Origin: Flavobacterium sp. MDT1-60
Lineage (GTDB): Bacteria > Bacteroidota > Bacteroidia > Flavobacteriales > Flavobacteriaceae
Assembly (NCBI RefSeq): GCF_014844035.1
Contig: NZ_CP062159.1
Span: 62,001 to 126,000 of the forward strand
Direction of reading: 5' to 3'
Length of the DNA: 64,000 bases
The notes under the pieces are model-generated. The model worked only from the letters and a program-made list of their open reading frames with translations, was not told the DNA's origin and did not search any database. Position 1 is the first letter of the stretch; each line of letters opens with the position of its first letter. Shown one piece after another: positions 40,876-62,126 of the stretch. The position numbers were made by a program, and so were the translations under genes.

Positions 40876-40930
40876 TGTATTAATTATTTAGTGTTATTGT
40901 AATTGATTTTTAAAATTGATATTATATTTC

Positions 40931-42937: not shown

Positions 42938-43031
42938 AAAAATGATTTTAATAGTAATTAGAAAACTGTTTAGAGAAACTAAAAACAGTGCATTTCAAGC
43001 CACAAAAAGACTTGATTCTAAAACATTAAAA

Positions 43032-43475: not shown

Positions 43476-43922
43476 TTATTTTTTAAAATTTACCTGCTGA
43501 TAATAAAATGCAGGAATGAAAAGCAAAACAAATATCGGTTGAATAATAAATCTTCTAACGTAAAAAAGCAACCAATTCCCATTAGGGAAATAATTCAGAA
43601 TCACAAAAAATAACATTAAGAGCAGTGCTAAAAAAAAAACATAAAGAAAAGTACTGAACTTTAAAATTTCTCTATCGCGAAATAGTGTATAAATAAGTAT
43701 CAACGATAGGATAGTATTTAAAAAATATCGAAAGAAAAGTCCGCAAAAAAGCTTAAAAACATCAAACGGAGGAAATGGCCAATTTTTGAAATTCGACTCG
43801 AAATAATCCAGAAATGGATCATAAAACAATTGACTTTCAAAAGTTCTTATCAATCCAAAACACATTACAATAAATATTGTGATTATAATTCTAACCTTAT
43901 GTTCCAATAATTTACTTAGCAT
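43476..43922 (-). CDS. Exosortase F-associated membrane protein
   Basis: The 148-residue protein has about four membrane helices and the pattern of the small partner encoded beside XrtF: TFESQLFYDPFLDYFESNF, WPFPPFDVFKLFCGLFFRYF and a C-terminal FVLLFIPAFYYQQ. It overlaps the exosortase gene by 11 bases, so the two are translationally coupled. Its molecular role is unknown; position and pattern carry the call. Confidence 0.85.
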   Translation of the reverse strand: MLSKLLEHKVRIIITIFIVMCFGLIRTFESQLFYDPFLDYFESNFKNWPFPPFDVFKLFCGLFFRYFLNTILSLILIYTLFRDREILKFSTFLYVFFLALLLMLFFVILNYFPNGNWLLFYVRRFIIQPIFVLLFIPAFYYQQVNFKK

Positions 43923-44448
43923 ATTTTGAAAATTTATTAACCCAAAATACCCATAAGATAAAAACCAATCCGTAAATAATTAAAGGAAACAAAACTCCAT
44001 GCAAAATATGTTCATTTTCAGGAAACGAAAATAGCAAAACAGTTAAAATTGCAATGCGAAGCACATTTAAAATATAGATTAAAACACTTCCTGCTATTAT
44101 AAACAATAAAGTCGTTTTGAATTTTCCGGAAAAAGCAATTACAAAAGAGACAAATAGAATAATAACACTTATTGCATTGCAACCTTCGATAATTCTGATT
44201 GTAAACTTTCCCTTATACCACACTTCAAAATAAGGATGTAATACACTTTTATGAATAATGACATCACAATTAAATAACTGCATTAACTGTTCTAAATTAT
44301 GACTCACAATAGTAGTTATTCCATCAACATCATTGTCCGAAAAACTGTTCAAATAAAATTTATAAAGTAGGGTCAGCACAATATAAGCCGAAAAGAAAGT
44401 GCCTATAAAAATCAAGAAAGGTTTAAATTGTAATAAATATTTTTTCAA
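43912..44448 (-). CDS. xrtF: Exosortase XrtF
   Basis: The 178-residue polytopic protein has the exosortase/archaeosortase triad: Cys90 in IIEGCNAISV, Arg131 in YILNVLRIAIL and His150 in EHILHGVLFPLII. Exosortases are membrane transpeptidase-like enzymes thought to cut and attach proteins with a C-terminal sorting signal; XrtF is the compact Flavobacteria type. It overlaps its partner gene by 11 bases. No substrate with an obvious sorting signal is encoded in the window. Confidence 0.9.
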   Translation of the reverse strand: MKKYLLQFKPFLIFIGTFFSAYIVLTLLYKFYLNSFSDNDVDGITTIVSHNLEQLMQLFNCDVIIHKSVLHPYFEVWYKGKFTIRIIEGCNAISVIILFVSFVIAFSGKFKTTLLFIIAGSVLIYILNVLRIAILTVLLFSFPENEHILHGVLFPLIIYGLVFILWVFWVNKFSKYAK

Positions 44449-45627: not shown

Positions 45628-47763
45628 ATGATTCCACAATTATTTGTAGAAAAGATCGATTTAGGTGATGGCAGAAGCATCACAATCGAGACGGGTCGTT
45701 TAGCTAAACAAGCTGACGGTTCGGTAGTAGTAAGAATGGGCGACACGATGATACTTGCAACAGCTGTATCTGCACGTAGCGCTAACCCAAATGTTGATTT
45801 TTTACCATTAACGGTAGATTATCGCGAAAAATTTGCAGCAGCTGGACGTTTTCCAGGAGGTTTCTTTAAGAGAGAAGCACGCCCTAGTGATAGCGAAGTA
45901 TTAACGATGAGATTAGTTGACCGTGTTTTACGTCCACTTTTTCCAGACGATTATCATGCTGAAACACAGGTTATGATTCAATTAATGTCTCATGACGGAG
46001 AAGTTATGCCAGATGCTTTAGCTGGTTTAGCTGCATCTGCAGCATTAGCTGTTTCAGATATTCCTTTTTATAACTTAATTTCAGAAGTACGTGTTGCACG
46101 TATCGACGGAAAATTTGTAATCAATCCAAGCAGAACAGAATTAGAAAAATCAGACATCGATATGATGATTGGAGCTTCTTTGGATTCTGTGGCAATGGTT
46201 GAAGGAGAGATGAAAGAAATTTCAGAAGCTGAAATGGTTGAAGCAATTAAATTTGCTCACGAAGCTATTAAAGTTCAAATTCAGGCACAATTGCGTTTGC
46301 AGGCTGCTTTTGGTAAAAAAGAAATTCGTACTTACGAAGGTGAGAAGGAAAACGAAGAAATTTACAAAAAAGTAAAAGCTGCAGCTTACGATAAAATTTA
46401 TAATATCGCAAAAGTTGGATCGGCTAAACACGAAAGAAGCGCTGCATTTGCTGAAGTAAAAGAAGAAGTAAAAGCTTTATTTACAGAAGAAGAATTAGCT
46501 GCTGATGGAGATTTAGTTTCTAAATATTTCTACAAAACAAACAAAGAGGCTGTTCGTAATGTAGTATTAGAATTAGGAGTTCGTTTAGATGGTAGAAAAA
46601 CAACAGACATCAGACCAATCTGGTGTGAAGTTGATTATTTACCAAGAGTTCACGGTTCTTCTTTATTTACACGTGGAGAAACTCAGGCTTTGGCAACAGT
46701 AACTTTAGGAACTTCCAGAGAAGCTAACCAAATTGATTCTCCATCTGAACAAGGTGAAGAGAAATTCTACTTACACTATAATTTCCCTCCTTTCTCAACT
46801 GGTGAAGCAAAACCTCTAAGAGGAACTTCAAGAAGAGAAGTTGGTCACGGTAACTTAGCTCAAAGAGCTTTAAAAAACATGATTCCTGTTGATTGTCCTT
46901 ACACAATCCGTATTGTTTCTGAAGTTTTAGAATCTAACGGTTCTTCTTCTATGGCAACAGTTTGTGCTGGAACAATGGCTTTGATGGATGCTGGAGTTCA
47001 AATGGTAAAGCCAGTTTCTGGAATTGCTATGGGATTAATTACTGACGGTGATAAATTTGCTGTATTGTCTGATATTTTAGGTGATGAAGATCATTTAGGT
47101 GATATGGACTTTAAAGTAACCGGAACTGCTGATGGTATTACAGCTTGTCAAATGGACATTAAAATTGATGGTTTACGTTATGACATCATGGAGCAAGCTT
47201 TAGGGCAAGCACGTGAAGGACGTTTACACATTTTAGGAAAATTAACTGAGACTATTGCTGCGCCAAGAGCTGATGTAAAAGCGCATGCACCAAAAATCAT
47301 TACCAGAACTATTCCTGGAAACTTTATTGGAGCATTAATTGGACCTGGTGGAAAAGTAATTCAGGAATTACAAAAAGCTACAGGAACAACTATTGTAATC
47401 AACGAAGTTGATGAGCAAGGTGTTATCGAAATCTTAGGTACAGATCCTGCTGGAATTGAAGCAGTATTGGCTAAAATTAAGTCAATCACTTTTAAACCAC
47501 AAATGGGAGAAGCTTACGAAGTAAAAGTAATTAAAATGTTAGATTTTGGAGCTGTAGTTGAATATACTGCTGCACCAGGAAATGAAGTTTTATTACACGT
47601 ATCTGAGTTAGCTTGGGAACGCACTGAAAATGTTACTGACGTAGTTAACATGGGTGATGTTTTTGAAGTAAAATACTTAGGTGTTGATCCTAAAACTAAA
47701 AAAGAAAAAGTGTCAAGAAAAGCACTTTTACAAAGACCTCCACGTGAGGAGAAAAAAGAGTAA
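45628..47763 (+). CDS. pnp: Polynucleotide phosphorylase
   Basis: The 711-residue exoribonuclease has two RNase PH domains ([20 protein letters not shown] then [40 protein letters not shown] and [16 protein letters not shown]), an all-helical linker, a KH domain with [20 protein letters not shown], and a C-terminal S1 domain ([17 protein letters not shown], then LLHVSELAW). It degrades mRNA from the 3' end with phosphate. Length is standard. A weak AAGGA motif precedes its start and a clear terminator follows. Confidence 0.97.
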
Positions 47764-47796: not shown

Positions 47797-47833
47797 AAAA
47801 CCCCAATTCATTCATTTGAATTGGGGTTTTTCG
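47797..47833 (+). terminator. Terminator of pnp
   Basis: The stem CCCCAATTCA with TGAATTGGGG, with an A run before and TTTTT after, lies 35 bases downstream of the pnp stop. A decayed copy sits at 54570-54605. Confidence 0.9.
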
Positions 47834-47898
47834 TTTTAAAACATATATATTATATTACAATTTAACACTTATCCGTGAAATTTGTAACATTTTTTTGA

Positions 47899-47906
47899 TA
47901 CTTTTG
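47899..47906 (+). promoter_or_regulatory. Putative -7 box (TACTTTTG) of operon copy A
   Basis: It matches TAnnTTTG 38 bases upstream of the TTG start. The surrounding string AACATTTTTTT and ATACTTTTGAAAT is kept in copy B. Confidence 0.6.
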
Positions 47907-47944
47907 AAATTACCAAAACAATTCATTAAAAGCTACAGAATCTT

Positions 47945-48718
47945 TTGAAAAATTATCAAAAAAAATCGATTTTCCTTATTTTATTTGGATTATTCTTAAA
48001 TATTTGCGCCCTCCACAGTCAAACAACTTATAATAAAACTCCAATCAATAATTGGTTTGACAATACAATTGGGAAGGAAAATTTAGCCATTTACAATGGT
48101 TCCCGCCATGTAAATTATTACATAACACTGGACAAGAGCCATAGCTATTATGCTTCAAGAAAATTCACTACTGGCTCCCTTAAGTATGAAGATCAGGATT
48201 ATTATAATGTCGAACTTAAATACGATGTTAACAATGATATTTTAGTTTGTAGGCCAATTGGCGAATTTGACTATATGGGGATAAATGTAATTAAAGAAAA
48301 AACCGCCAATTTTAGTATTTATGACAAGCAGTTTGTTAATATAAACTACGAGAATCCTTCATGTCCCGTATTTATGACTGGCTATTATCAGGAAATTATC
48401 TTTTCTAAAAACAACATTCTCTATATTAAACATCATAAGAGCAGAACAAAAGTAATTGACACTAAAACTATTTCTGATGGGGTTAATCAAAATAGCACTG
48501 ATGAGTTTAAAGAAAAAAACGAATTTATTTTAAAGTACAAAGAAGCCTATTATAGGATCAGTTCAAAAAGTGACATTATTAAAATTTTTCCAGAGTATAA
48601 AAGCACAATAAAAAAATATTATAATAACAATGCTCAGTTAGAGGAATCAGACAATAAAGTTTTTATTGAAAATTTAATAAAAGAAATAAACACTATTTCC
48701 AATAATGTATCCAATTAA
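47945..48718 (+). CDS. Secreted hypothetical protein, first gene of operon copy A
   Basis: The 257-residue protein starts with TTG (the copy B gene does too) and a signal peptide (SIFLILFGLFLNICALHSQ). The mature part is beta-rich with NNWFDNTIGKENLAIYNGSR, YYNVELKYDVNNDILVCRP and a C-terminal LIKEINTIS helix. I do not recognise the family. The paralogue in copy B keeps landmarks such as NWFD, LKYD and NLIKxIN but is otherwise strongly diverged. The receptor gene starts two bases after its stop, so the two are co-expressed. It may be a surface or periplasmic partner of the receptor. Confidence 0.8.
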   Translation: MKNYQKKSIFLILFGLFLNICALHSQTTYNKTPINNWFDNTIGKENLAIYNGSRHVNYYITLDKSHSYYASRKFTTGSLKYEDQDYYNVELKYDVNNDILVCRPIGEFDYMGINVIKEKTANFSIYDKQFVNINYENPSCPVFMTGYYQEIIFSKNNILYIKHHKSRTKVIDTKTISDGVNQNSTDEFKEKNEFILKYKEAYYRISSKSDIIKIFPEYKSTIKKYYNNNAQLEESDNKVFIENLIKEINTISNNVSN

Positions 48719-48720
48719 AA

Positions 48721-51498
48721 ATGAGAAAAATTATATTAGCACTATTTCTATTAGCTTTTCATGCATTATCTTTTAGTCAGGAAAAAACAAAAAATATCTC
48801 TATTGAATTTAATAATACCGATTTAAAATCAGCATTAGAAAATATCGAAAAAATTACTGATTATAAATTTTACTTTGATCAAAATTGGCTTAAAACCGAA
48901 ACTATTATCATCAATAAAACATACGAGAATACTTCAATTGAATATATATTAACTAATCTTTTTGAGAAAACCGATCTAAATTATTTTATATCTGACAAAG
49001 AAATAATCCTGACAAAAAACAGCATTATTTACGATTCGCTGCCTGATGATTATTTTGAATCTTCAACCACTGCTCAGCCAAATAAAACTGAAGCTATAGT
49101 TTTAGCAAAACCTATATTTCAGCAACAATATGATACCTTAAAACACGACAATATTAATTCGGGCATTACCTATGTTGGAAAAGAAAAAAAAGGTGGAGAG
49201 TCAAAATTCTATACACTTTCAGGGTTTATAAAAAATAAAAAAACAGGAAAAACAGTTTCTAACGTAAGCATTAAAGTACTTGATCAAAACATAAGTACAG
49301 TTACTAATAGTGAAGGATATTATACCCTTCAGGTACCATTTGGTCTTAACTACATTGAAGTTGAATCAATCAATCATAGAAAAGATACAGAGACTTTAAT
49401 GGTTTATGATAATGGTCAATTAGACATTACCTTATATGAAAGTATAAATGAATTAGACGAGGTCATTATAAAGCAGAATGCAGACAAAAATGTAAAAAAT
49501 GTTATTGCAGGAGTTTCCAGCATTGATGTTGAAGGAATAAAAAACATCCCTCTGGTTCTTGGTGAAAGAGATATTTTTAGAGTTGCTACAACTCTACCGG
49601 GAATAAAAACTACAGGAGAAGGTTCTGCGGGATTTAATGTTAGAGGAGGAAAAGACGATCAAAATTTAATCCTCTTAGATAATGCAGTTTTATATAATAC
49701 GTCTCACTTTTTAGGTTTTTTCTCGGCCGTTAATCCCTATACGACCAGCAAAGTAGACATATATAAAGGTAGTATTCCTGCGAGATTCGGAGGAAGATTA
49801 TCATCTGTTTTTGACATTGCTTCTAAAAATGGTAATCCCGAGAAATTTTCTGGCGAAGGTGGAATAGGCTCTGTTACCAGTAATCTTACGATAGGAACTC
49901 CGATAGTAAAAAACAAATCCAGCTTATTAGTTGGCGTAAGAACTACTTATTCTGAATGGATTTTAAAGAGTCTGGATGATGAATCTTTAAAAAATAGTCA
50001 GGCAGCATTTTTTGATGGAATTATAAAATACAACCACAAAATAAACACCAATAATAATATTGAATCTACACTATATTATAGTAAAGATCGCTTTAGTATT
50101 TCTTCTGATTCAGTTTATAAATATAGTAATGCATTGGTTTCATTAAAATGGAATCATGCATTCAGCGGCAAAAGCAAAACCGACTTAATATTTACCAATA
50201 GTAATTACAAATTTAATATTGACTATAATAATGGAACTCCAAATTCTTTTAATTATGGATACAAATTAAATGAAACTCAAATTATAGCCAATGCTAATTA
50301 TTCACTTAATAGCAAACATGCCTTTAATTATGGTATTTCTAGTAAGCTTTACAATGTTGACCCGGGATATCTTAATCCTAAAGATCCTAAATCAACTATA
50401 ATTCCAATAAATATAGAAGATGAAAAAGCCCTGGAATCTGCTCTTTATTTTTCAGACAGTTACACTCTTAATGAAAAAATATTAATTAGCTTAGGATTGC
50501 GTTACTCAACATATTCTGCACTTGGTGAATCAACACAAAGAATTTATGAGAGTAATGCCCCCATTAATGACAATACCGTTATTGAAACACAACATTATAA
50601 GAAAAATGAAGTCATTAAAACTTATGGCGGTTTTGAACCGAGAATAGCAGCACGCTATTTGTTTACCGATGATTTCTCCGTAAAGGCAAGTTATGATAAA
50701 ACCTTTCAATACATACATTTACTAACAAATAATACGACTCAATCACCAACTGACTCGTGGAAGCTATCTGATTTAAATATTGCTCCACAAGAAGCACAAC
50801 AATATTCATTGGGCTTTTATAAAAATCTTGATAATGATAATATCGAACTAAGTTTAGAAGGCTATTATAAAAAATCTAATAATTTATTAGACTATAAAGT
50901 CGGATCTGAATTATTACTGAATGAAAATACCGAAACTCAGCTTTTGCAAGGCGAAGGAAAAGCATATGGGGTTGAATTCTTACTGAAAAAAAATGCTGGA
51001 AAGCTTAATGGTTGGCTAGGATACACTTATTCACGAACTTTTATTAGAATAAATACCGAGTTTATTGATGAAAAAGTTAATAATGGACATTATTTCCCAA
51101 CAAACTTCGACAAGCCGCATGAAGTAAGTGCTGTATTAAATTATAAATTCACTAAAAGATATAGTTTATCTGGTAATTTTGTATATCAATCAGGAAGACC
51201 AATTACCTATCCTATTGGAAGTTATGTTTATAATGGCATGGAATACACCTTATATAGTGATAGAAACAAATTTAGAATTCCTGATTATTACAGACTAGAT
51301 CTTGGTTTTAATATTGAAGGCAATCATAAAATAAAAAAATTATCACATAGTTTCTGGAATATATCTGTCTATAATGTCTTAGGAAGAAATAATCCTTATT
51401 CTATCTTTTTTATTACAACAGATGGCCAGATAAAAGCTTATAAAACGTCTATATTTTCCGTGCCGATACCGACCATAACATATAATGTCAAATTTTAA
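48721..51498 (+). CDS. TonB-dependent receptor with STN and carboxypeptidase-like domains (copy A)
   Basis: The 925-residue protein has a signal peptide (ending LSFSQ), an STN-type domain at about 22-100 (ALENIEKITDYKFYFDQNWL), a linker, a carboxypeptidase-like domain at about 160-245 (TLSGFIKNKKTGKTVSNVSI), the plug (IPLVLGERDIFRVATTLPGI; GSAGFNVRGGKDDQNLILLD; ARFGGRLSSVFDI) and a barrel ending VPIPTITYNVKF. STN domains usually signal to an anti-sigma factor, but no sigma/anti-sigma pair is nearby. A DUF4249 lipoprotein occupies the place where SusD would be, so this is not a normal SusCD pair. Substrate unknown. Confidence 0.9.
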   Translation: MRKIILALFLLAFHALSFSQEKTKNISIEFNNTDLKSALENIEKITDYKFYFDQNWLKTETIIINKTYENTSIEYILTNLFEKTDLNYFISDKEIILTKNSIIYDSLPDDYFESSTTAQPNKTEAIVLAKPIFQQQYDTLKHDNINSGITYVGKEKKGGESKFYTLSGFIKNKKTGKTVSNVSIKVLDQNISTVTNSEGYYTLQVPFGLNYIEVESINHRKDTETLMVYDNGQLDITLYESINELDEVIIKQNADKNVKNVIAGVSSIDVEGIKNIPLVLGERDIFRVATTLPGIKTTGEGSAGFNVRGGKDDQNLILLDNAVLYNTSHFLGFFSAVNPYTTSKVDIYKGSIPARFGGRLSSVFDIASKNGNPEKFSGEGGIGSVTSNLTIGTPIVKNKSSLLVGVRTTYSEWILKSLDDESLKNSQAAFFDGIIKYNHKINTNNNIESTLYYSKDRFSISSDSVYKYSNALVSLKWNHAFSGKSKTDLIFTNSNYKFNIDYNNGTPNSFNYGYKLNETQIIANANYSLNSKHAFNYGISSKLYNVDPGYLNPKDPKSTIIPINIEDEKALESALYFSDSYTLNEKILISLGLRYSTYSALGESTQRIYESNAPINDNTVIETQHYKKNEVIKTYGGFEPRIAARYLFTDDFSVKASYDKTFQYIHLLTNNTTQSPTDSWKLSDLNIAPQEAQQYSLGFYKNLDNDNIELSLEGYYKKSNNLLDYKVGSELLLNENTETQLLQGEGKAYGVEFLLKKNAGKLNGWLGYTYSRTFIRINTEFIDEKVNNGHYFPTNFDKPHEVSAVLNYKFTKRYSLSGNFVYQSGRPITYPIGSYVYNGMEYTLYSDRNKFRIPDYYRLDLGFNIEGNHKIKKLSHSFWNISVYNVLGRNNPYSIFFITTDGQIKAYKTSIFSVPIPTITYNVKF

Positions 51499-51510
51499 TA
51501 ATCAAAATAA

Positions 51511-52737
51511 ATGGAATTTATAATCAGACCTATCAGACTTTTATATAAAACATTTGTTTTAATACTTTTTTCTTTTTCTATTAGCAGCTGTACAGAGCAA
51601 TATGTTTTTCAAACAAATTCTACGTTTGAAAGCATACTTGTAGTTCAGGCAAATATTACAAATGAATTAAAAAAACAGGAAATAAAAATTACGAAATCAT
51701 ATCGTTTTGAGGAAAATGGACCAACATTTGAAAAAGGAGCAAACGTTTATGTAACCGACAGTGATAAAAATACTTTTGAGTTTGAACTTGAGGAATTTTC
51801 AGGTCTTTATGTCTCAAAAAATGATTTTCAGGCAATTCCAGGAAAATCTTATCGCTTAAACATTATAACAAAAGATGGAAAATCATATTCCTCTGCAGTA
51901 CAAACTTTAACCGAAGTTAATGAAATTGAGGTAGAGTCAAAAGCAGCAACTATTGATGGAAATAAAGGCGTACAAATAATGGTAAGTAGCTTTGATCCAA
52001 ACGGAAAATCACGGTTTTACAGATACGAATATGAAGAAACATACAAAGTAGTATCTCCTTATTGGAATCGTAATAAACTTATAGTGGATTCAGGCAGTCC
52101 AAACATAGAGGAACCAAAATATCTTATTGTTCCAAGGGAAGGCGAAACCAGAATATGCTATTCGACAAAAAAATCAGATGATTTAATTCTATTGAGTACA
52201 GTGGGTTTGAGTGAAGACCGTATCAATCTCCCGATAAGATTTATAGATATCAAAAATCCCGTACTTAATGAGCGTTACAGTATTATTGTACGTCAATATA
52301 TTCAAAACTTAGAATCGTATACGTATTATACCACTTTAAAGACCCTTTCTACTTCTTCAAGCCTTTTTTCTCAAGTTCAACCCGGATTTAATTACGGTAA
52401 TTTAAAATCAGATGACAATCCTGATGAGAAGGTAATTGGTTATTTTGAAGTGTCTTCTGTTTCATCAAAAAGAATCTTTGTAGATTTTAGAGCTTTATTT
52501 GCAGATGATCCGTATCCGCCATTTGCTTTTGACTGTACATCAGCAGAATTACTAAACTGTTGGGACGCTAAAGGTTGTGCAGGCTCAACGATACTTGCCT
52601 TAATTAAATCACCTGTGCCTGAGAAAATATTTTATGGATCCCGAGATAATATGGAAGTAATTATATTTGTTCCCTCACCTTGTGGCGACTGCACCAAAAT
52701 TTCATCTAACATTAAACCTTTATTTTGGATAGATTAA
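51511..52737 (+). CDS. DUF4249 lipoprotein (copy A)
   Basis: The 408-residue protein has a lipoprotein signal (LFSFSISSCTEQYVF; lipid Cys27) and the DUF4249 pattern: ESILVVQANITNELKKQEIK, an N-terminal beta-sandwich with AIPGKSYRLNIITKDGKSYS, FYRYEYEETYKVV and a Cys-containing C-terminus (PSPCGDCTKISSNIKPLFWI). It follows the receptor by 12 bases. DUF4249 proteins are surface or periplasmic lipoproteins encoded with TonB receptors; function unknown. Its last 13 bases overlap the next gene. Confidence 0.9.
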   Translation: MEFIIRPIRLLYKTFVLILFSFSISSCTEQYVFQTNSTFESILVVQANITNELKKQEIKITKSYRFEENGPTFEKGANVYVTDSDKNTFEFELEEFSGLYVSKNDFQAIPGKSYRLNIITKDGKSYSSAVQTLTEVNEIEVESKAATIDGNKGVQIMVSSFDPNGKSRFYRYEYEETYKVVSPYWNRNKLIVDSGSPNIEEPKYLIVPREGETRICYSTKKSDDLILLSTVGLSEDRINLPIRFIDIKNPVLNERYSIIVRQYIQNLESYTYYTTLKTLSTSSSLFSQVQPGFNYGNLKSDDNPDEKVIGYFEVSSVSSKRIFVDFRALFADDPYPPFAFDCTSAELLNCWDAKGCAGSTILALIKSPVPEKIFYGSRDNMEVIIFVPSPCGDCTKISSNIKPLFWID

Positions 52738-54509
52738 AAATAATAATAAGTATCGTGATGTTAATAGCAATTAATACAGCTATTGCACAGAATAGTTCAT
52801 TAAGTAAAAATGAAACTATAACTAAAGCCACGAGCGAAAATATATTTGTTCATTTAAACACCACAACTTTAGTTGCGGGAGAGACGTTACATTGTAAGTT
52901 TTATTGTTTAAATCCATCAAATAACAACCTAAGTGACATAAGCAAAATTGCTCATGTAAAAATTGTCAACGAAGAAAACCAGGTTGTTTTAATGAACAAA
53001 ATTCATCTGGACAAGGCAACTGGACAAGGCGATTTTTTTATACCAACAACATTTAGTACAGGTAACTATAAACTTATTGCCTATACAAACTGGATGTTAA
53101 ACAAAAAAGATTCAAAAGTTTCTGAAACCGATCTTTTTATAATAAATCCTTATTCAACAAGTAAAAAAAACAATTCTAATAAAGATTCTAACACGCAAAT
53201 AAAAGAAGCAAAAACTCCAAAAGCTGAAATAAGTATTACAAACCAACCAAAGGATGAATCATTTACCTTAGAAGTAGATAAAAAAATAGCAGCAAAAAGA
53301 GAACAAATTTCACTTAAAATAAAGTCATCAAATCCTGTCCTTAATAAAGGAAGTTTTTCACTGTCAGTAAAAAAAACAGATAATTTACCCAGTATAAAAC
53401 CAATGAATTCTTACGAGTTTACAAAATCTAATTCTAATAATCAATTGGCAAACACTATCAACGATAATATCTTATTTTTACCAGAATTTAGAGGAGAAAT
53501 GATATCAGGCTCCATTATAAACATAAAAGACCCAAAACAAATTGTAGATAAAGATGTAGCGTTATCAATACCAGGAACTGATTTTGCATTTAAGATTGTC
53601 AAAACTGATGAGTACGGTAAATTCAATTTTATTTTAGATAAAAACCCAAATTATGCAAATACTGTCCTTCAGGTTGTGGAAAATGATAGAAATGATTATA
53701 AAATAGAAATTGAAAAAGATAAAGATTATGATCTGTCAGAATTGAAATTTACAAATGACTTAAATCTTACATCTGATTATAAAAAGAACATTGAAGAAAG
53801 GTCAATTGCAAACCAAATTGAGAATGCCTATTATCCAATCAAAAAAGATAGTATAGAAAGTAATACTAAAGCGATCCCTTTTTATCATCCGTTAGAAAAA
53901 GAGTACGTTCTTGCGGATTACACCAAATTTCCAAGTTTAAAAGAAACCATTACAGAAGTAATTACAGAAGCATATTATCGTGAAGAAAATAATAGTTTCA
54001 CACTAAATGTGAGAGATATAAATTACGATTTAAAATATTTTTCAGAACCTGCATTGGTATTAGTCGACGGATTATTAATCCAAAATGTTAATGAATTGGT
54101 CGATTATAAAACTGAGAATATATACAAAGTCAGTATTGTTCCCGGAATTTATCTTTATGGACCAAAAGCATTTAATGGTATCATTAGTATTACTACAAAA
54201 AATAATGATTATGTGAGTAAAACAACAGGTAATTACATTCTGAAGTCAGAGATTCAAAGACCATTAAAAAAAACAATATATTTTAAACAAGACTATACAG
54301 ACAGAACTAAATATAGTCGAATTCCTGATTACAGATACCAATTGCTTTGGCAACCTGAATTAAAATTGGAAAAAACTGAAAACGTAATTTCCTTTTACAC
54401 TTCTGATGTACCGGGAGTTTATGAAATAAATTTAGAAGGATTTACAGAAAAAGGAATTCCTGTTACCTTAAAAGAAACTATAGAAGTAAAAAATGTGACT
54501 GCTAATTAA
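52725..54509 (+). CDS. Periplasmic protein with MG2-like and TonB-plug-like domains (copy A)
   Basis: The 594-residue protein starts at TTG 52725, inside the end of the DUF4249 gene; the signal peptide is MDRLKIIISIVMLIAINTAI plus AQ. An MG2-type (macroglobulin-like) domain lies at about 38-145 (NIFVHLNTTTLVAGETLHCK, FFIPTTFSTGNYKLIAYTNW). A plug-like segment at about 445-500 reads LVDGLLIQNVNELVDYKTEN and YGPKAFNGIISITTKN, like the plug of TonB receptors, but no barrel follows. It may dock on a barrel or link the receptor to the lipoprotein; this is inference. The copy B paralogue has the same layout. Confidence 0.8.
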   Translation: MDRLKIIISIVMLIAINTAIAQNSSLSKNETITKATSENIFVHLNTTTLVAGETLHCKFYCLNPSNNNLSDISKIAHVKIVNEENQVVLMNKIHLDKATGQGDFFIPTTFSTGNYKLIAYTNWMLNKKDSKVSETDLFIINPYSTSKKNNSNKDSNTQIKEAKTPKAEISITNQPKDESFTLEVDKKIAAKREQISLKIKSSNPVLNKGSFSLSVKKTDNLPSIKPMNSYEFTKSNSNNQLANTINDNILFLPEFRGEMISGSIINIKDPKQIVDKDVALSIPGTDFAFKIVKTDEYGKFNFILDKNPNYANTVLQVVENDRNDYKIEIEKDKDYDLSELKFTNDLNLTSDYKKNIEERSIANQIENAYYPIKKDSIESNTKAIPFYHPLEKEYVLADYTKFPSLKETITEVITEAYYREENNSFTLNVRDINYDLKYFSEPALVLVDGLLIQNVNELVDYKTENIYKVSIVPGIYLYGPKAFNGIISITTKNNDYVSKTTGNYILKSEIQRPLKKTIYFKQDYTDRTKYSRIPDYRYQLLWQPELKLEKTENVISFYTSDVPGVYEINLEGFTEKGIPVTLKETIEVKNVTAN

Positions 54510-54569
54510 AATAATAGATATGGTTATTCTAATAAAGAGAGCGCTCACGTTAGTTAATAAAAATTCACA

Positions 54570-54605
54570 AAAATCCCATTTTATTCATTTAAATTGGGAC
54601 TTTTC
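54570..54605 (+). terminator. Decayed copy of the pnp terminator at the duplication junction
   Basis: The hairpin (TCCCATTTT, loop, AAATTGGGA) has mismatches but keeps the loop string ATTCATTT and the tail TTTTCGTT seen in the pnp terminator. It lies after the copy A operon and may still end its transcript weakly. Confidence 0.6.
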
Positions 54606-54671
54606 GTTAATAATAACAAATAATTTATCACATTTTAACACGTATACACATTATCTATAACATTTTTTTAA

Positions 54672-54679
54672 TACTTTTG
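54672..54679 (+). promoter_or_regulatory. Putative -7 box (TACTTTTG) of operon copy B
   Basis: It matches TAnnTTTG 37 bases upstream of the TTG start, in the same context as in copy A. Confidence 0.6.
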
Positions 54680-54716
54680 AAATCAACCAAAACAAAACAC
54701 TAAAACGACCAATCCT

Positions 54717-55433
54717 TTGAAAAATCATCAACAAAAAACTATTTTCCTTGTTTTATTTGGATTATTCTTAAATATTTACTCCACCCAAAGTCAAACAAAT
54801 GATGATATTATTGTCTATAATTGGTTCGATAAAAATTTAGGTTTAGAATCTCTGGATTTTAAAAACGGACTAGCCCATCTAAATTTTGACAAGACTGCTA
54901 CTAATCAAAATCGTTATTTAACTGATGAATTCAGAAAAGGAAGTATTAGCTACAATGAACAGATATACTTTGATTTGTTTCTGAAATATGATATTCATAG
55001 TGATGAATTGGTTTTAAGACCTTACGATGAAGCTAACACAACCAAAATCAACCTTATTAAAGACAACATTAAGTCCTTTTCCATTGGAAATGAGAAATTT
55101 ACCAACCTTAAAGAACTTAACCCAACCGTCTTAAAAGGTGGATATTATGAAGAGGTATTAATTGGAAAAAACATTACACTTTATATCAAATACTATAAAG
55201 AAAAAAAGAAAAGCAGCAAGGATGAAATTAATTTAATTGATTATGTACCCAAATATGAGTTTGTCTTATTTAAAGAAAACAGGTATAATTTGATAAGTGA
55301 AAAAAAAGAAATCATAACGCTGTTTCCTGACAGTAAAAGAAAAATAAATGATTTTTATCTTATGAATAGAGACTTGAGAAAAGAGAATCCTCCCCTATTC
55401 ATGAAAAACCTTATCAAATACATTAATAATTAA
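54717..55433 (+). CDS. Secreted hypothetical protein, first gene of operon copy B
   Basis: The 238-residue protein starts with TTG, and its signal peptide (TIFLVLFGLFLNIYSTQSQ) is close to that of copy A even in DNA. Shared landmarks are YNWFDKNLGLESLDF, FLKYDIHSDELVLRPYD, GGYYEEVLIGKNITLYIKYY and FMKNLIKYINN. The remainder has diverged much more than the signal peptide. The receptor gene starts 20 bases downstream. The family is unknown to me. Confidence 0.8.
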   Translation: MKNHQQKTIFLVLFGLFLNIYSTQSQTNDDIIVYNWFDKNLGLESLDFKNGLAHLNFDKTATNQNRYLTDEFRKGSISYNEQIYFDLFLKYDIHSDELVLRPYDEANTTKINLIKDNIKSFSIGNEKFTNLKELNPTVLKGGYYEEVLIGKNITLYIKYYKEKKKSSKDEINLIDYVPKYEFVLFKENRYNLISEKKEIITLFPDSKRKINDFYLMNRDLRKENPPLFMKNLIKYINN

Positions 55434-55453
55434 AATTTGCAGAAATCATCCAA

Positions 55454-58195
55454 ATGAGAATATTTACGATCCTTATATTATTTTTCGGTTTTAATCAATT
55501 AATGTATTCACAAGTTCAAAAAAACACGATCAACATTAATTACAGCAACATCAGCAGGATTGATGTTTTAAAAAAAATTGAAGCTTCTACTAATTATAAA
55601 TTTTATTTTCAGGACGACTGGCTCGATAATACTGTTTTAATTTCAGGCGATTATTCAAATAAGACTATTGAAGAATTATTATCAAAAGTTTTAGAAGACA
55701 CTGACCTAAATTTTTTTATTAGTAAAAATAAAATCATACTAACCAAAAACAGTATTATTTACAGCAAATTACCAAGTAACGGAACCAAAGATTCTAATAC
55801 CCCAATCTTTTTCCAACAATATGATTCCGTTAAAAAAAATAAATTGGAGGCAGCATCACCAATTGCATTAATTGGTAAAGAGTCATTAGATTCAGATGTT
55901 GAACTTTATACACTTTCTGGTCACATTACTGATTTAAAAGATGGCAAACCTCTTGCGGACATAACGGTAAAAGCAAAAAATACTCCAATATCAACTATTA
56001 CAAATACTGAAGGATTTTACAGTTTAAAACTTCCTACCGGTCTGAGTACAATAGAAATCGAGTCGATATTTCACAATAGTACTTCTCGAAAAATCATGAT
56101 TTATAGTAACGGTACTTTGGATTTTTCTATCATCGAAAAAATAAATCAATTAGATGAAGTATTAGTAAAAGGGAAAGACAGCCAAAACATCAGAACAGCG
56201 ATTACAGGTGTTACAACTATCGAAGCTGAAGGAATTAAAAATATCCCTTTAGTGCTGGGAGAGCGAGATATTTTTAAGGTTGCCTTAACCATTCCCGGGA
56301 TAAAAACTGCCGGTGAAGGTTCATCTGGATTTAATGTCCGAGGAGGAAAAGAAGATCAGAACCTGATATTATTGGACAACGCAACCATTTATAACCCTAC
56401 GCACCTTTTTGGATTTTTCTCTTCTGTTAATCCTTATACAATAAACAAAGTTGACATTTATAAAGGTGGAATACCTCCAGAATTCGGAGGTAGATTATCA
56501 TCTGTTTTTGATATTGCTTCTAAAAATGGAAATGCCGAAAAAATATCAGGAGAAGGGGGTATTGGGCCAGTAACAAGTAATCTTACTCTTTCAATTCCCG
56601 TTGTAAAAGACAAAGCCAGTTTATTAATCGGTGGAAGAGCAACTTACTCAGATTGGATTTTAAAGCAATTAGATGATGAAAACCTAAAAAACAGCCAGGC
56701 TTCTTTTTATGATTTATTTGCAAAATACAATCACAAAATAAACAAAAATAATTCAGTAGAAGGAACCGGATATTACAGTAAAGATGCGTACAGTATAACT
56801 CCTGATTCTATCTATAAATACAGCAACAGTCTTGTTTCTTTAAAATGGAAACATGCTTTTAATGAAAAAAACAGCGGCGAACTAAACTTTACAAATAGTG
56901 GCTATAATTTCAGTATCAATTATGAATCTACTAATCCGGAATCCTTTATTTTCAAATATAAAATAAATGAAACTCAGGCAAATTTAAAATTCAATAGTGA
57001 ATTAGGCGCTAATCACAAATTCACTTATGGAGTAACGAGTAAATTATACAAAGTTAATCCGGGAGAATTAAGTCCAAACGGATCTTCTTCAATTGTGACT
57101 CCGACAAAAGTAGATGATGAAAAAGGATTGGAATCGGCTGTGTTTTTCTCTGATAAATTTCAAATCACCGAAAAATTATTATTGGATATTGGAGCCCGAT
57201 ATTCTCTTTATGCAGCTTTAGGACCATCTACGCAAAAAATTTACCAAGAAGGCGTTCCGATGACTCCTTCAACTGTAATCGAGGAAAAAACATACACTAA
57301 TAATCAGGTAATAAACACTTCTGGCGGATTTGAGCCAAGAATAGGTTTGAGATATATCTTTGATGAAAGCTTATTTGTAAAAGCTGGTTTCGATAAAAAT
57401 TTCCAATATATTCACCTACTAACAAATAATACTACTCAATCTCCAACGGATACCTGGAAATTATCTGATTTGAATGTTAAACCAGAAAGTGGATTACAAT
57501 ATTCTTTAGGCATTTTCAAAAAATTGGATTACAAAGATATCGAGCTTAGTCTTGAAGGTTATTATAAAACATCAAAAAACATATTAGATTACAAAGTAGG
57601 CGCCAATATTCTTTTAAACCAAGATCTAGAAACCGAATTATTGCAAGGAGATGGAAAAGCCTACGGAGTCGAATTTTTATTAAAAAAACCTAACGGAAGA
57701 CTTAACGGATGGATTGGATACACTTATTCTAGAACTTTTATAAAATTAGACAGTCAATTTAATGATGAAAAAGTAAATAATGGTGAATATTTTCCAACTA
57801 ATTTTGATAAACCACATGACTTTAGCATTGTAATGAATTATAAATTCACACATCGCTATAGTTTTTCTTCTAATTTTGTATATCAAACCGGAAGACCAGT
57901 TACCTACCCAATTGGTAAATATTTTTATCAGGGTGCCGAATATACAATGTATAGTGACCGAAATAAATACCGAATACCTGATTATTACAGACTTGACATA
58001 GGACTTAACATTGAAGGAAATCATAAAATAAAAAAATTAGCGCATAGTTTCTGGAATATTTCGATCTACAATGTATTGGGAAGAAATAATCCTTACTCCA
58101 TCTTTTTTGTAACAAAAGATGGACAAATTAAAGCCTATCAGACCTCTATTTTTGCAGTTCCGATACCAACTATTACTTATAATTTTAAATTTTAA
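55454..58195 (+). CDS. TonB-dependent receptor with STN and carboxypeptidase-like domains (copy B)
   Basis: The 913-residue protein has a signal peptide (ending LMYSQ), an STN-type domain (VLKKIEASTNYKFYFQDDWL), a carboxypeptidase-like domain at about 152-235 (TLSGHITDLKDGKPLADITV), the plug (IPLVLGERDIFKVALTIPGI; GSSGFNVRGGKEDQNLILLD) and a barrel ending VPIPTITYNFKF. It matches copy A almost throughout, with identical blocks such as YIHLLTNNTTQSPTD and NVLGRNNPYSIFF; differences cluster in barrel strands and loops. It is not accompanied by SusD or a sigma/anti-sigma pair. Confidence 0.9.
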   Translation: MRIFTILILFFGFNQLMYSQVQKNTININYSNISRIDVLKKIEASTNYKFYFQDDWLDNTVLISGDYSNKTIEELLSKVLEDTDLNFFISKNKIILTKNSIIYSKLPSNGTKDSNTPIFFQQYDSVKKNKLEAASPIALIGKESLDSDVELYTLSGHITDLKDGKPLADITVKAKNTPISTITNTEGFYSLKLPTGLSTIEIESIFHNSTSRKIMIYSNGTLDFSIIEKINQLDEVLVKGKDSQNIRTAITGVTTIEAEGIKNIPLVLGERDIFKVALTIPGIKTAGEGSSGFNVRGGKEDQNLILLDNATIYNPTHLFGFFSSVNPYTINKVDIYKGGIPPEFGGRLSSVFDIASKNGNAEKISGEGGIGPVTSNLTLSIPVVKDKASLLIGGRATYSDWILKQLDDENLKNSQASFYDLFAKYNHKINKNNSVEGTGYYSKDAYSITPDSIYKYSNSLVSLKWKHAFNEKNSGELNFTNSGYNFSINYESTNPESFIFKYKINETQANLKFNSELGANHKFTYGVTSKLYKVNPGELSPNGSSSIVTPTKVDDEKGLESAVFFSDKFQITEKLLLDIGARYSLYAALGPSTQKIYQEGVPMTPSTVIEEKTYTNNQVINTSGGFEPRIGLRYIFDESLFVKAGFDKNFQYIHLLTNNTTQSPTDTWKLSDLNVKPESGLQYSLGIFKKLDYKDIELSLEGYYKTSKNILDYKVGANILLNQDLETELLQGDGKAYGVEFLLKKPNGRLNGWIGYTYSRTFIKLDSQFNDEKVNNGEYFPTNFDKPHDFSIVMNYKFTHRYSFSSNFVYQTGRPVTYPIGKYFYQGAEYTMYSDRNKYRIPDYYRLDIGLNIEGNHKIKKLAHSFWNISIYNVLGRNNPYSIFFVTKDGQIKAYQTSIFAVPIPTITYNFKF

Positions 58196-58199
58196 AGTC

Positions 58200-59402
58200 A
58201 TGAAAGTCTTATTCAGATTTCTCACAATATTAATACTCTCAACAACCGCTGGGTGTACGACTCCATACGACTATCAAACTAACGGATTCGATGATGTTAT
58301 TACAATTGAAGCTACTATAACTGATCAATTTAAAACTCAGGAAATAAAACTTACAAGAACTTACAAACTTGAAGAAAAAGTACCTACGTTCGAAACGAAA
58401 GCTATTGTTTTTGTAACTGATGACAAAGGGAATAAATACGATTTTAAAGAGAATGCAGGAACATACACTTCTATAAATCAGTTTCAGGCAAGTCCGGACA
58501 GAACTTATGAATTACATATTCGTACCCAAGATGGAAGATCATATATTTCAAATGCAGAAAAATTACCACAACAAACCCAAATCGAAAGTGTAAACGCTGA
58601 TGCTATTACCAAAGCAGGAGTTCTTGGAGTAGAAATTACAGTAAACAGTACTGACCCCACTAATTCATCAAAATACTATAGATATGAATATGAAGAAACT
58701 TCTCAAATTATTGCTCCAAAATATTATCCGGAAATGTTGGTTGCAAATAACGGTAGGGTTACTTTTCAGCCAAGAAATTATGAAGCAAGAATTTGTTATA
58801 CTACGGAGAAATCAAACACTTTGTTATTGACAAGCACGAGCCATTTATCAGAAGACAAAGTATCTAATTTTCCAGTTCGATTTATTTCTAGCAAAGACAA
58901 ATTTATCAGAAACAGATATAGCATTTTAGTTAAGCAATACGTTCAAAGTCTGGCTGCGCATACTTTTTCTGAAACACTTAAAGAAATATCAGCCACCGGA
59001 AGTATTTTATCGCAAACGCAACCTGGCTTTTTTTACGGAAACATTCAATCAGAAACTAATCCATCTGAAAAAGTAATCGGTTACTTTGATGTTTCGTCTT
59101 ATTCAGAAAAAAGAATTTTCTTCAGTTTTACGGAACTTTTCCCGAAAGAGCCTAAGCCGCAATATCAATACGAATGTCCTTCAGAGATACCAGAATCAGA
59201 CTTTCCACAATACTTTTTCAATTATTGTTTTTCTACTAATCCAAATGCGGGTTGTCAGGGAAATTTAATTGTAGAATACATACGAACAAGAATCAAAGTC
59301 TTTTTCCCCAATGAAGGTAACCTTTATTTATTGTACCCTATTGAATGTGGAGATTGCACGTCATTTTCATCAAATATAAAACCATCATTTTGGATAGATT
59401 AA
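58200..59402 (+). CDS. DUF4249 lipoprotein (copy B)
   Basis: The start at ATG 58200, four bases after the receptor stop, gives a clean lipoprotein signal (LTILILSTTAGCTTP; lipid Cys19) and 400 residues; the frame also stays open into the receptor gene, which is not used. The N-terminal part (DDVITIEATITDQFKTQEIK) and the C-terminal CGDCTSFSSNIKPSFWID parallel copy A. Its last 13 bases overlap the next gene, exactly as in copy A. It is probably the surface lipoprotein partner of the receptor. Confidence 0.9.
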   Translation: MKVLFRFLTILILSTTAGCTTPYDYQTNGFDDVITIEATITDQFKTQEIKLTRTYKLEEKVPTFETKAIVFVTDDKGNKYDFKENAGTYTSINQFQASPDRTYELHIRTQDGRSYISNAEKLPQQTQIESVNADAITKAGVLGVEITVNSTDPTNSSKYYRYEYEETSQIIAPKYYPEMLVANNGRVTFQPRNYEARICYTTEKSNTLLLTSTSHLSEDKVSNFPVRFISSKDKFIRNRYSILVKQYVQSLAAHTFSETLKEISATGSILSQTQPGFFYGNIQSETNPSEKVIGYFDVSSYSEKRIFFSFTELFPKEPKPQYQYECPSEIPESDFPQYFFNYCFSTNPNAGCQGNLIVEYIRTRIKVFFPNEGNLYLLYPIECGDCTSFSSNIKPSFWID

Positions 59403-61123
59403 AATATATATTAGTCATAGCTTTAATAATAAGTTTTCAGCAAATTTCTTTTGCTCAGAAAAGCAATACTATTAATGAGCTGAGTGAGATCGACAAAAAG
59501 TTAAACGAGTCAATTTATGTTAGCACAAACGGCAATTCGTTCCTAACCGGAGAAACTTTACTCTATAAATTTTTCTGCGTCAACAGTACAACAAATATTC
59601 CATCAAAATATAGCAAAGTAGCCTATCTCAAACTTATAGACAGTAATAAAAAAACCATTTTTACTCAGAAATTATTCCTTGAAAACGGAATTTCAAATGG
59701 TGATTTTTTTATTCCGACCACTTTAGAAACCGGAAGCTATAAGATTATCGGGTATACGAATTGGATGCTTAATAAAAATGCTTCAGTATATTTTAGTCAA
59801 GATATCTTTATAATAAATCCATATAAAGAAAAATCAAAAAATGTTATCACTGAGAAAGTTTCTCAGTCAGAAGTAATCTCGAATGAAAATATTTCTTTTG
59901 ATTTAAAAAGTAAAACTTACAAAAGCAGAGATAAAATAGAATTTAAAATCAATACAACTTCTGAGGAATTTGCTAAAGGGAATTATATAGTATCTATTCG
60001 AAAAGCAGATGGTTTACTATCTCAAAATAAAATAAATTTTAAAGAATCACAAGCGGAAAACCAAAATAGAAATTTTAATACGGAAATCAATAGTACTAAT
60101 TTTTTACTTCCTGAATTACGCGGGGAAATCATCAGCGGAAAACTTTCGTCTAACACCTCGGAAATTAAAAATAAAAAAGTGGCACTTTCTATTGTAGGCA
60201 AAAACAATGATTTGAAATTGACTAAGACGGATGAGCAAGGTAAATTTCAATTTAATTTGGAAAACCCAAATCCAAATCCAAATATTATTGTACAGGTTAT
60301 TGAAGATAATAACGAAGATTATACTATTGTGATGGACCAGCCTAAAGACATAGATATTTCAAATTTAACATTCCCTGTTTTTGAGTTTAATTCAGAGTTT
60401 GTAAATAACGTGACCGAGCGCTTAGTTTCGACTCAAATCGAAAATGCCTATTTTAGCAAAAAGAAAGATAGCACTATAGTTCCTAATGATAGTATTGCAT
60501 TTTATGGATCTTTGTCAAAGGAATTTAAACTTGATGCATTTACACGATTCCCAACAATGGCAGAAACGATTACAGAAGTTGTGGCTGGTGTTTACTTCAA
60601 AAAAATCAACAACGATTATTCGATTCATGTTTATGATTATGATCCTAATTATGAATCGACAATACCTGCCTTAATAACAGTTGATGGGTTAATTATTCAA
60701 AATGTAAATGAATTGTTTACCTATAATCCTAAAAATATTTATAAAGTTAATGTTGTAAAAGGACTTTATTACTATGGTTCAAAATCATTCAACGGAATTG
60801 TTGCTTTTACAACCAAAAATGGAGATTATGACACTAATCTTAAAGGTAATTTTATAATTAGGCCAGAAATTTTAAGACCTCAATATAAAAAAGAATATTT
60901 TCAGCCAGATTATGCAGATGGCAAATATTCAAGAATTCCAGATTACAGACATCAATTATTATGGATGCCAAAAGTTGATTTGAGTAATTCAGATTCAAAA
61001 GTATCTTTTTATGCATCTGATGTTCCGGGTAAATATGAAATAATTTTAGAAGGATTTTCGGGTACAGGAAAACCAGTTTTTATAAAAGAAAACATTGAAA
61101 TACAGGATTTAATCTCAAATTAA
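59390..61123 (+). CDS. Periplasmic protein with MG2-like and TonB-plug-like domains (copy B)
   Basis: By analogy with copy A it starts at TTG 59390 (LDRLKYILVIALIISFQQI, a signal peptide ending SFAQ), giving 577 residues. The MG2-like part reads SIYVSTNGNSFLTGETLLYK and FFIPTTLETGSYKIIGYTNW; the plug-like segment reads ITVDGLIIQNVNELFTYNP and YYGSKSFNGIVAFTTKNGDY. It ends with a further beta domain (SFYASDVPGKYEIILEGFSG) shared with copy A. The 13-base overlap with the DUF4249 gene suggests translational coupling. A strong terminator follows. Confidence 0.8.
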   Translation: MDRLKYILVIALIISFQQISFAQKSNTINELSEIDKKLNESIYVSTNGNSFLTGETLLYKFFCVNSTTNIPSKYSKVAYLKLIDSNKKTIFTQKLFLENGISNGDFFIPTTLETGSYKIIGYTNWMLNKNASVYFSQDIFIINPYKEKSKNVITEKVSQSEVISNENISFDLKSKTYKSRDKIEFKINTTSEEFAKGNYIVSIRKADGLLSQNKINFKESQAENQNRNFNTEINSTNFLLPELRGEIISGKLSSNTSEIKNKKVALSIVGKNNDLKLTKTDEQGKFQFNLENPNPNPNIIVQVIEDNNEDYTIVMDQPKDIDISNLTFPVFEFNSEFVNNVTERLVSTQIENAYFSKKKDSTIVPNDSIAFYGSLSKEFKLDAFTRFPTMAETITEVVAGVYFKKINNDYSIHVYDYDPNYESTIPALITVDGLIIQNVNELFTYNPKNIYKVNVVKGLYYYGSKSFNGIVAFTTKNGDYDTNLKGNFIIRPEILRPQYKKEYFQPDYADGKYSRIPDYRHQLLWMPKVDLSNSDSKVSFYASDVPGKYEIILEGFSGTGKPVFIKENIEIQDLISN

Positions 61124-61142: not shown

Positions 61143-61181
61143 AAAAGATCCATTTCAGTATATTGAAACGGATCTTTTTTA
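61143..61181 (+). terminator. Terminator of operon copy B
   Basis: The stem AAAAGATCC-ATTTCA with TGAAA-CGGATCTTTT ends in six T, about 20 bases after the stop. Confidence 0.85.
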
Positions 61182-61262: not shown

Positions 61263-62126
61263 ATGAGACAACTTAAAATCACCAAGCAGGTAACCAATCG
61301 TGAAACTGCATCGTTAGATAAATATCTACAAGAAATCGGAAAAGTTGACCTAATTACCGCTGATGAAGAGGTAGAATTAGCACAAAGAATAAAGGCTGGT
61401 GATCAAAGAGCTTTAGAAAAACTTACAAAAGCCAACCTACGTTTCGTAGTATCGGTTGCTAAACAATATCAAAATCAAGGATTAACGCTTCCTGATTTAA
61501 TTAACGAAGGAAACTTAGGATTAATTAAAGCCGCTCAACGTTTTGATGAAACTCGTGGTTTTAAATTTATTTCTTACGCAGTTTGGTGGATTCGTCAATC
61601 GATCCTTCAGGCTTTAGCAGAACAATCACGTATTGTTCGTTTACCATTAAACAAAATTGGTTCTATCAACAAAATCAACAAAATGTATGCGTTATTAGAG
61701 CAATCTAACGAGCGTCCGCCTTCTGCTGAAGAAATTGCAAAAGAACTTGACATGACTGTAAATGACGTAAAAGAGTCTATGAAAAACTCTGGTCGTCACT
61801 TATCAATGGATGCACCTCTTGTTGAAGGAGAAGATTCTAACCTTTATGACGTTTTACGTTCTGGTGAATCTCCAAATCCAGACAGAGAATTAATTCACGA
61901 ATCATTACGTACTGAAATTGAACGTTCACTAGAAACATTAACTCCTAGAGAAGCTGATGTTGTTCGTTTGTATTTTGGTCTTGGTGATCAACACCCAATG
62001 ACATTAGAAGAAATTGGAGAAACTTTCGACTTAACCCGTGAACGTGTACGTCAGATTAAAGAAAAAGCAATTCGCAGATTAAAACATACTTCAAGAAGTA
62101 AAATTCTTAAAACTTATCTTGGGTAA
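61263..62126 (+). CDS. rpoD: Primary sigma factor RpoD (short Bacteroidetes form)
   Basis: The 287-residue protein starts directly with region 1.2 ([20 protein letters not shown]) and lacks region 1.1. Region 2 shows [40 protein letters not shown] and [19 protein letters not shown]; region 3 follows, and region 4 has [20 protein letters not shown] and the helix-turn-helix [20 protein letters not shown]. It is the Bacteroidetes housekeeping sigma that recognises TTG/TAnnTTTG promoters, consistent with the boxes seen here. It has an unusually clear Shine-Dalgarno site and a downstream terminator. Confidence 0.96.

Follow-up and report, generated by a model that had tools for sequence, protein, structure and literature searches.

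Outer-membrane transporters in which a TonB-dependent gate works with a surface lipoprotein include SusCD/RagAB and two Bacteroides systems whose lipoprotein is not a SusD, BtuBG for vitamin B12 (PMC10404256) and XusAB for xenosiderophores (PMC13142918), both proven lid transporters according to the parts of these sources available to us. A further subfamily of TonB-dependent transporters is encoded almost always beside DUF4249, and a joint function is proposed for the two in the available part of PMC11003636, which gives no substrate. In this work, we describe a locus of Flavobacterium sp. MDT1-60 in which such a pair belongs to a larger set of genes: two four-gene blocks, each in the order A-B-C-D, stand in tandem between pnp and rpoD, with all eight open reading frames (ORFs) present and intact. 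A is a secreted protein, B a TonB-dependent receptor, C a DUF4249 lipoprotein and D an MG2 protein, and the 64,000-nucleotide stretch that carries them, hereafter the window, covers positions 62001-126000 of C1, the single contig of the 5.56 Mb genome. DUF4249 proteins were reportedly proposed to be lids in a 2023 preprint by Price. We find that A-B-C(n)-D forms a real, fixed module, that the two copies are ancient types rather than a young duplication, and that they occupy a variable site; each block probably encodes one lid-type uptake complex.

The block shares with the BT2172/BT2173 pair a receptor beside a DUF4249 lipoprotein in an operon, an adjacency that holds in 46 of 46 blocks of the genus and, for C, at 37 of 37 loci with D elsewhere in the family, and it differs from that pair in its long DUF4249 protein (~400 aa), sometimes present in tandem, and in the conserved A and D. 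With BtuBG and XusAB it has in common a TonB gate and a non-SusD surface lipoprotein as the presumed lid, but the lid families differ, that of XusB being one other than DUF4249. The available parts of the sources on these two systems describe no relatives of A or D. The gate-plus-lid principle and a CarboxypepD_reg-like extension of the gate are also found in SusCD/RagAB, but B lies far below the SusC/RagA cut-off (TIGR04056; 31.9 bits for B1 against 368.25, and no match for B2) and Pfam finds no SusD family among the eight block proteins, in agreement with an earlier note on this DNA that had taken the locus for a non-Sus system. The literature searched, preprints excluded, scarcely mentions DUF4249 and yielded no description of the A-B-C-D module or of a receptor site at pnp-rpoD. 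The TonB/DUF4249 pair is already known; A, D, the multiple lids and the swapping locus set the present module apart as a variant of it.

The genus sample comprised 121 Flavobacterium genomes, searched with a profile of D and then for A, and the 35 module-bearing genomes other than that of the window were fetched. Full-length D is present in 36 of the 121 (five more match by the MG2 part only), and A is present in the same 36. These hold 46 blocks, window included, every one of which has A, B, at least one C and D; homologues of the four genes thus occur together, as the earlier note expected, and not mostly apart. There is one C in 35 blocks, two in eight, three in one and four in two, and tandem arrays of two or three blocks are found in eight of the 36 genomes. 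A check of 43 of the 44 non-window blocks, the remaining one being split over two stretches, found no extra same-strand ORF of at least 80 aa inside them, and the window has no other same-strand ORF of at least 90 aa in or between its blocks. Both pnp and rpoD flank the module in 33 of 36 genomes; the other three (G079, G103 and G050) showed one of the two, and in G103 rpoD follows further along in the same direction. A scan of named genomes, which may omit records very near the window genome, found a complete A-B-C(n)-D at 67 of its best 71 loci, which overlap the 121-genome sample; two of the other four have B in two ORFs and two are without A at a contig start. The closest named match to D1 in that scan, at 81%, is from Flavobacterium aquidurense DSM 18293, which also reads pnp-ABCD-ABCD-rpoD. 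In F. johnsoniae CI04 an A-B-C-D block adjoins rpoD.

Among the 198 genomes sampled from the rest of the family, 33 encode a full-length D, as 38 genes at 37 loci; B accompanies it at 35 loci (the two without it are short contig pieces) and A at 22. At two loci (L133 and L145) C genes stand only 3' of D, so that D lies between B and C, and a single genome (G315) has pnp beside the module. Extra C genes 3' of D were also seen at L114, L115 and L143, and C is multiplied within a block up to five times (L127; also L057 and L047). Across a 118-genome sample of the phylum, DUF4249 is found in 67 genomes (E <= 1e-8), and A-B-C(n)-D in G412, at two loci, and in G385, both members of other families in the same class. 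In these operons D has a long form of 793-820 aa, which suggests that the Flavobacteriaceae D is probably shortened. B-C pairs without A or D exist as well, in G422, in G389 and twice in the window's own genome. In the latter, the C of each pair is a short DUF4249 gene directly after a receptor-like ORF (L072, 8633-9481, near 2407725 of contig C1; L073, 9499-10320, near 4698558).

Aligned gene by gene, the two window blocks are 41.6% identical in A (238 aligned positions), 61.7% in B (911), 45.8% in C (393) and 44.7% in D (573). The tandem of four-gene blocks in like order first noticed in this DNA is confirmed. Fourfold-degenerate sites agree between the copies at 37% in B (n = 179) and at 27-33% in A, C and D (n = 15, 63 and 63), and look saturated, or nearly so, for this base composition. 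B1 and B2 find their best matches in the genus sample at 83% and 88%, compared to 62% to each other. In a careful D tree and a quick B tree, copy 1 joins three others (type I) and copy 2 joins nine others (type II), in supported groups that are not sisters in either tree. All 46 Flavobacterium B proteins form one clade (support 99 in FastTree, with 37 B from other genera included), nearly all of them at pnp-rpoD, which argues that the array arose at this locus, long ago. As judged from these sequences, the tandem arrangement predates the present species by far and its copies are two ancient types. The earlier view that the copies are nearer each other than separate loci is therefore right in that all lie at one locus and in one clade, and wrong in that each is nearer to the copies of other species.

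Drawn from the B and D trees, five types (I-V) cover 36 of the 46 blocks and leave ten outside. Identity between types is 32-41% for A, 57-64% for B, 40-49% for C and 38-44% for D. In all 36 typed blocks each of the four proteins has its nearest neighbour within its own type, a coherence that is partly circular for B and D, from which the types were drawn, and an independent test for A and C. The order of types varies: I-II in the window, III-II-I in G108, III-I-II in G053, IV-II in G054, II-IV in G102 and III-V in G057, G109 and G096. In a quick tree of pnp, rpoD and rpe, the window genome groups (99) with G054 (II and IV), G103 (IV) and G114 (II), and the sisters G006 and G063 (100) carry IV and V, respectively. 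Types I to V require at least 3, 6, 3, 8 and 5 presence changes over the 36 genomes, as counted without a shuffled control.

Module-free genomes vary at the same place. Of 85 such genomes, 20 were fetched, picked for long contigs, and in all 20 pnp and rpoD lie 0.17-12.0 kb apart, with less than 310 bp between them in three, other ORFs of at least 90 aa in 16 and none in four. The pnp-rpoD interval is a variable site; since each type keeps its four genes matched but close relatives carry different types, it functions as a site of swapping. We infer whole-block exchange between species rather than loss alone, since the disagreement between the flank tree and the block trees favours some exchange. 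By eye, other cassettes in the interval include a histidine kinase with a LytTR-like regulator, an ECF-like sigma factor with a membrane protein and a CDP-alcohol phosphatidyltransferase-like gene (L036, L037-L038 and L035); some of the interval sets of the module-free genomes (L276-L295) match the kinase/regulator pair and the CDP-alcohol phosphatidyltransferase-like group in ORF sizes and order only.

What drives the swapping is a separate matter. Phages or bacteriocins that dock on B could be responsible, with transport as its ordinary role, and such an account, compatible with lid-type uptake, would suit the many types at a single locus and the differing blocks of close relatives despite well-conserved flanks. 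The B proteins of types I and II are, though, most divergent in the N-terminal 300 columns (26-45% identity, against 46-86% elsewhere), not at the surface alone, and we consider this driver unlikely.

B has the plug and C-terminal barrel that define a TonB-dependent receptor: plug and CarboxypepD_reg-like domains exceed the Pfam cut-off in both copies, the barrel model does so in B1 (93 bits), and B2 has no barrel match but is 62% identical to B1 over its full length. STN-like matches fall below the cut-off (13.9 bits in B1 and 15.9 in B2, against 28.4; E 0.049 and 0.011). An LDEV-like motif, which we take to be the TonB box, is kept in the 46 genus copies of B at L in 45, E in 46, V in 45 and D in 29. 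C is a DUF4249 protein (134 and 156 bits, cut-off 28.5), and the first C of each genus block has the lipoprotein cysteine in 46 of 46 cases and a C-terminal CxxC in 45. A1 and A2 match no Pfam or NCBIfam family, and the lipobox pattern is found in none of the 46 A and none of the 46 D of the genus.

D lacks a barrel and is most likely a cut-down scaffold of the macroglobulin type that carries a plug-like segment. MG2 scores below the cut-off in the window copies (25.5 and 24.5 bits, against 32.8) but is found at E <= 1 in 60 of 61 aligned members, and structure matches back a scaffold of MG domains; the 'MG2-plug' label first given to D is to that extent sound in its first half, and the plug half is matched in only three of the 61 and in neither window copy. 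Compared to alpha-2-macroglobulin and complement MG proteins, D is only ~590 aa long and has the plug-like segment, and no C-x-E-Q, the thioester motif of alpha-2-macroglobulins, was seen on reading the sequences of D1 (594 aa) and D2 (577 aa). With the ~800-aa MG2 proteins of Flavobacteriia it has MG2 and often C-terminal parts in common, and the operon D of G412 and G385 is a protein of this long form; ten loci of these (L266-L275), with one to three in a row, show no B or C match in the stretch, and one of the ten, in G310, is followed at a distance of two ORFs by a B-C-D block (L146).

We consider it somewhat probable that each block encodes one outer-membrane TonB uptake complex of the pedal-bin type, and that these complexes are exchangeable old types at pnp-rpoD. 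Given the DUF4249 proposal and the solved BtuBG and XusAB lids, the best reading is a TonB importer of the lid type that two periplasmic proteins assist. B would be the TonB-powered gate and C a surface lipoprotein that acts as its lid, with up to five lid genes per gate in some relatives. A and D would be exported, most likely to the periplasm, and would work with the N-terminal STN/CarboxypepD part of B. Blocks would be duplicated, lost and exchanged whole at pnp-rpoD, so that related species present different receptor complexes. The import direction, the role of the lid and the location of A and D and their contact with B are the inferred parts of this scheme; the accessory roles suggested earlier for C and D fit it, and the two copies may, as likewise suggested, be diverging toward different cargo.

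Divergence within B points the same way. Between B1 and B2 it peaks in the periplasmic N-terminal part (A, C and D are also strongly divergent), and the mean B distance is 0.61 for residues 24-160, 0.54 for residues 165-250, 0.25 for the plug and 0.32 for the barrel. In an exploratory comparison that uses equal numbers of variable columns and ignores shared ancestry, the distances of A and D track B residues 24-250 more closely than the barrel in 198 (A) and 197 (D) of 200 resamples, or 190 and 195 with types I-V only, and those of C do so in only 71 (28 with types I-V only). Because its rate of divergence is close to that of A and D, C serves as an inside control. The pattern suits a placement of A and D beneath the membrane, together with the N-terminal domains of B, and of C elsewhere.

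Several observations weigh against the uptake complex as drawn here, beginning with the exploratory nature of that comparison. A was not found at 15 of the 37 family loci (a contig end truncates three of these) and therefore is not required everywhere, and G298 has a weak A match with no B, C or D beside it. The strict LDEV motif is present in only 29 of the 46 Flavobacterium B proteins and in 26 of the 37 from other genera; of the 62 C proteins from other genera, whose starts are uncurated, only 24 match a simple lipobox pattern. A sequence search with DUF4249 gave no relative of solved structure and a fold search with A gave no match. The plug-like segment of D has no Pfam match in the window copies (the best of the three members that match has E 1.4e-4), and a profile comparison with the plug of B returned a probability of 3.6%. 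As for the exchange of blocks, differential loss from an old array could mimic it.

The boldest form of the model, which we regard as doubtful, makes D a second, barrel-less plug on a macroglobulin-type scaffold that docks under B. The block would then be a new class of TonB gate made of four parts (the gate itself, a set of lids, a detached plug and A as a periplasmic cap), and pnp-rpoD a diversification locus that swaps whole complexes, comparable to a capsule or O-antigen locus.

B might instead be mainly a signalling receptor whose STN-like domain reports the ligand inward, with A and D as periplasmic relay proteins. The STN-like match in both B, the way A and D divergence tracks the N-terminal part of B and the sigma factor-like gene or histidine kinase/response regulator-like pair seen by eye in the interval of some relatives would all suit such a role. 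The regulator cassettes are confined to some genomes, though, and sets of like size and order (judged on sizes only) occur in module-free genomes too; nor do the checked blocks or the window offer a further same-strand ORF of the sizes given above. Neither FecR nor ECF sigma families were found among the eight block proteins, and rpoD, 97-100% identical in the 114 genomes listed, was taken by eye as the housekeeping factor. A primarily signalling role seems to us quite unlikely. Less credible still is a complex that exports or assembles surface material, the assembly machine offered as an alternative in the earlier note, with A as its cargo, which would account for A being first in the operon, the most variable of the four between types, and furnished with a signal peptide but no lipobox pattern. 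B keeps the plug, barrel and TonB-box-like motif of an import receptor, and the solved non-SusD surface-lipoprotein partners of such barrels, in BtuBG and XusAB, serve import according to the parts of those sources available; in the assembly complex solved from F. johnsoniae the barrel, BamG, is FadL-like, and the subunits are unlike the block proteins by their description in the available part of PMC12611786.

Least of all does the evidence agree with a recent local duplication in which gene conversion has kept B alike, although this would be the simplest way to account for the identical stretches of B. The blocks are adjacent with alignable upstream DNA, the long identical stretches reported between the receptors are there, and the window B pair is 62% identical against a mean of 59% for I/II pairs across genomes, higher in 12 of 16 windows and by at most 11 points. 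In the C-terminal windows that hold those stretches, however, the pair reaches 75, 78 and 87% against between-genome means of 77, 83 and 86%, and in G108 and G053 the corresponding I/II pairs have no excess identity over most of B; with no clear C-terminal excess, the identical stretches reflect constraint. Recent duplication with conversion, as stated, is refuted by the fourfold sites and by the orthologues that each copy has of its own, and only an old or slight conversion may have taken place.

The layout of the locus is given in Table 1, in which the start codons of window genes are putative; the start of D was placed in both blocks by aligning the two copies, at a TTG that overlaps the last 13 bp of C. 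Block 1 spans 47945-54509 and block 2 spans 54717-61123. The block size of 6.6-6.8 kb put forward at first is right if upstream DNA is counted, the genes alone taking 6.57 and 6.41 kb. Likewise, of the identical spacing and overlaps claimed, the 13-bp overlap of C and D is the same in both blocks, but the A-B gap is 2 bp in block 1 and 20 bp in block 2, and the B-C gap 12 and 4 bp. A hairpin and a separate promoter-like element stand upstream of each block. Similarity between the blocks extends upstream of A through the promoter region to the hairpin after pnp, so that the repeat comprises the hairpin and promoter as well as the four genes. Similar hairpins precede some other downstream blocks (for example in G108 and G109), not all, and a terminator scan of the window listed none of the three hairpins of Table 1. 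TAnnTTTG, which we take to be the Bacteroidota promoter -7 consensus, precedes A by at most 130 bp in 30 of 46 blocks, usually at about -45, in a scan whose start codons were picked by motif and are approximate; TTG before A is common.

Table 1. Features of the tandem blocks and their borders (window coordinates).
Feature	Position	Strand	Description and basis
pnp	45628-47763		left neighbour of block 1
Hairpin 3' of pnp	47801..47831	+	terminator-like; left edge of duplicated unit; aligns with block 2 hairpin; sequence and hairpin scan
Block 1 promoter -7 element	47899..47906	+	TAnnTTTG; sequence
A1	47945..48718	+	secreted protein, 257 aa, TTG start, no lipobox
B1	48721..51498	+	TonB-dependent receptor, 925 aa; STN-like, CarboxypepD_reg-like, TonB-box-like LDEV, plug, barrel
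C1	51511..52737	+	DUF4249 lipoprotein, long form, 408 aa, C-terminal CGDC
D1	52725..54509	+	MG2 protein, 594 aa; CarboxypepD-like and plug-like segments, signal peptide, no barrel
Inter-block hairpin	54574..54599	+	resembles hairpin 3' of pnp; alignment and hairpin scan
Block 2 promoter -7 element	54672..54679	+	TAnnTTTG; sequence
A2	54717..55433	+	secreted protein, 238 aa, TTG start
B2	55454..58195	+	TonB-dependent receptor, 913 aa
C2	58200..59402	+	DUF4249 lipoprotein; likely start 58200 (listed ORF opens at 58119, inside B2)
D2	59390..61123	+	MG2 protein, 577 aa from likely TTG start 59390 (listed ORF opens at 59345)
Hairpin 3' of block 2	61143..61179	+	terminator-like; by eye from sequence
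rpoD	61263-62126		right neighbour of block 2

Upstream of pnp, 45079-45145 matches the Flavobacteria ribosomal protein S15 leader (RF03161, 66.1 bits). On the minus strand upstream of pnp, 43476-44448 holds an exosortase-like membrane protein and a neighbour, relatives of which lie beside pnp in many fetched stretches, and 40534-43430, also on the minus strand, encodes a heavy-metal-associated-like protein, a TonB receptor and a small Cys-rich protein and resembles a locus for copper or another metal (both by eye).

DUF4249 is widespread in the phylum, and the conserved A-B-C(n)-D set supplies it with defined partners. At pnp-rpoD, close relatives differ by whole blocks in the receptor complexes they encode, and the four genes of each block stay matched, which makes the co-adaptation of subunits testable.

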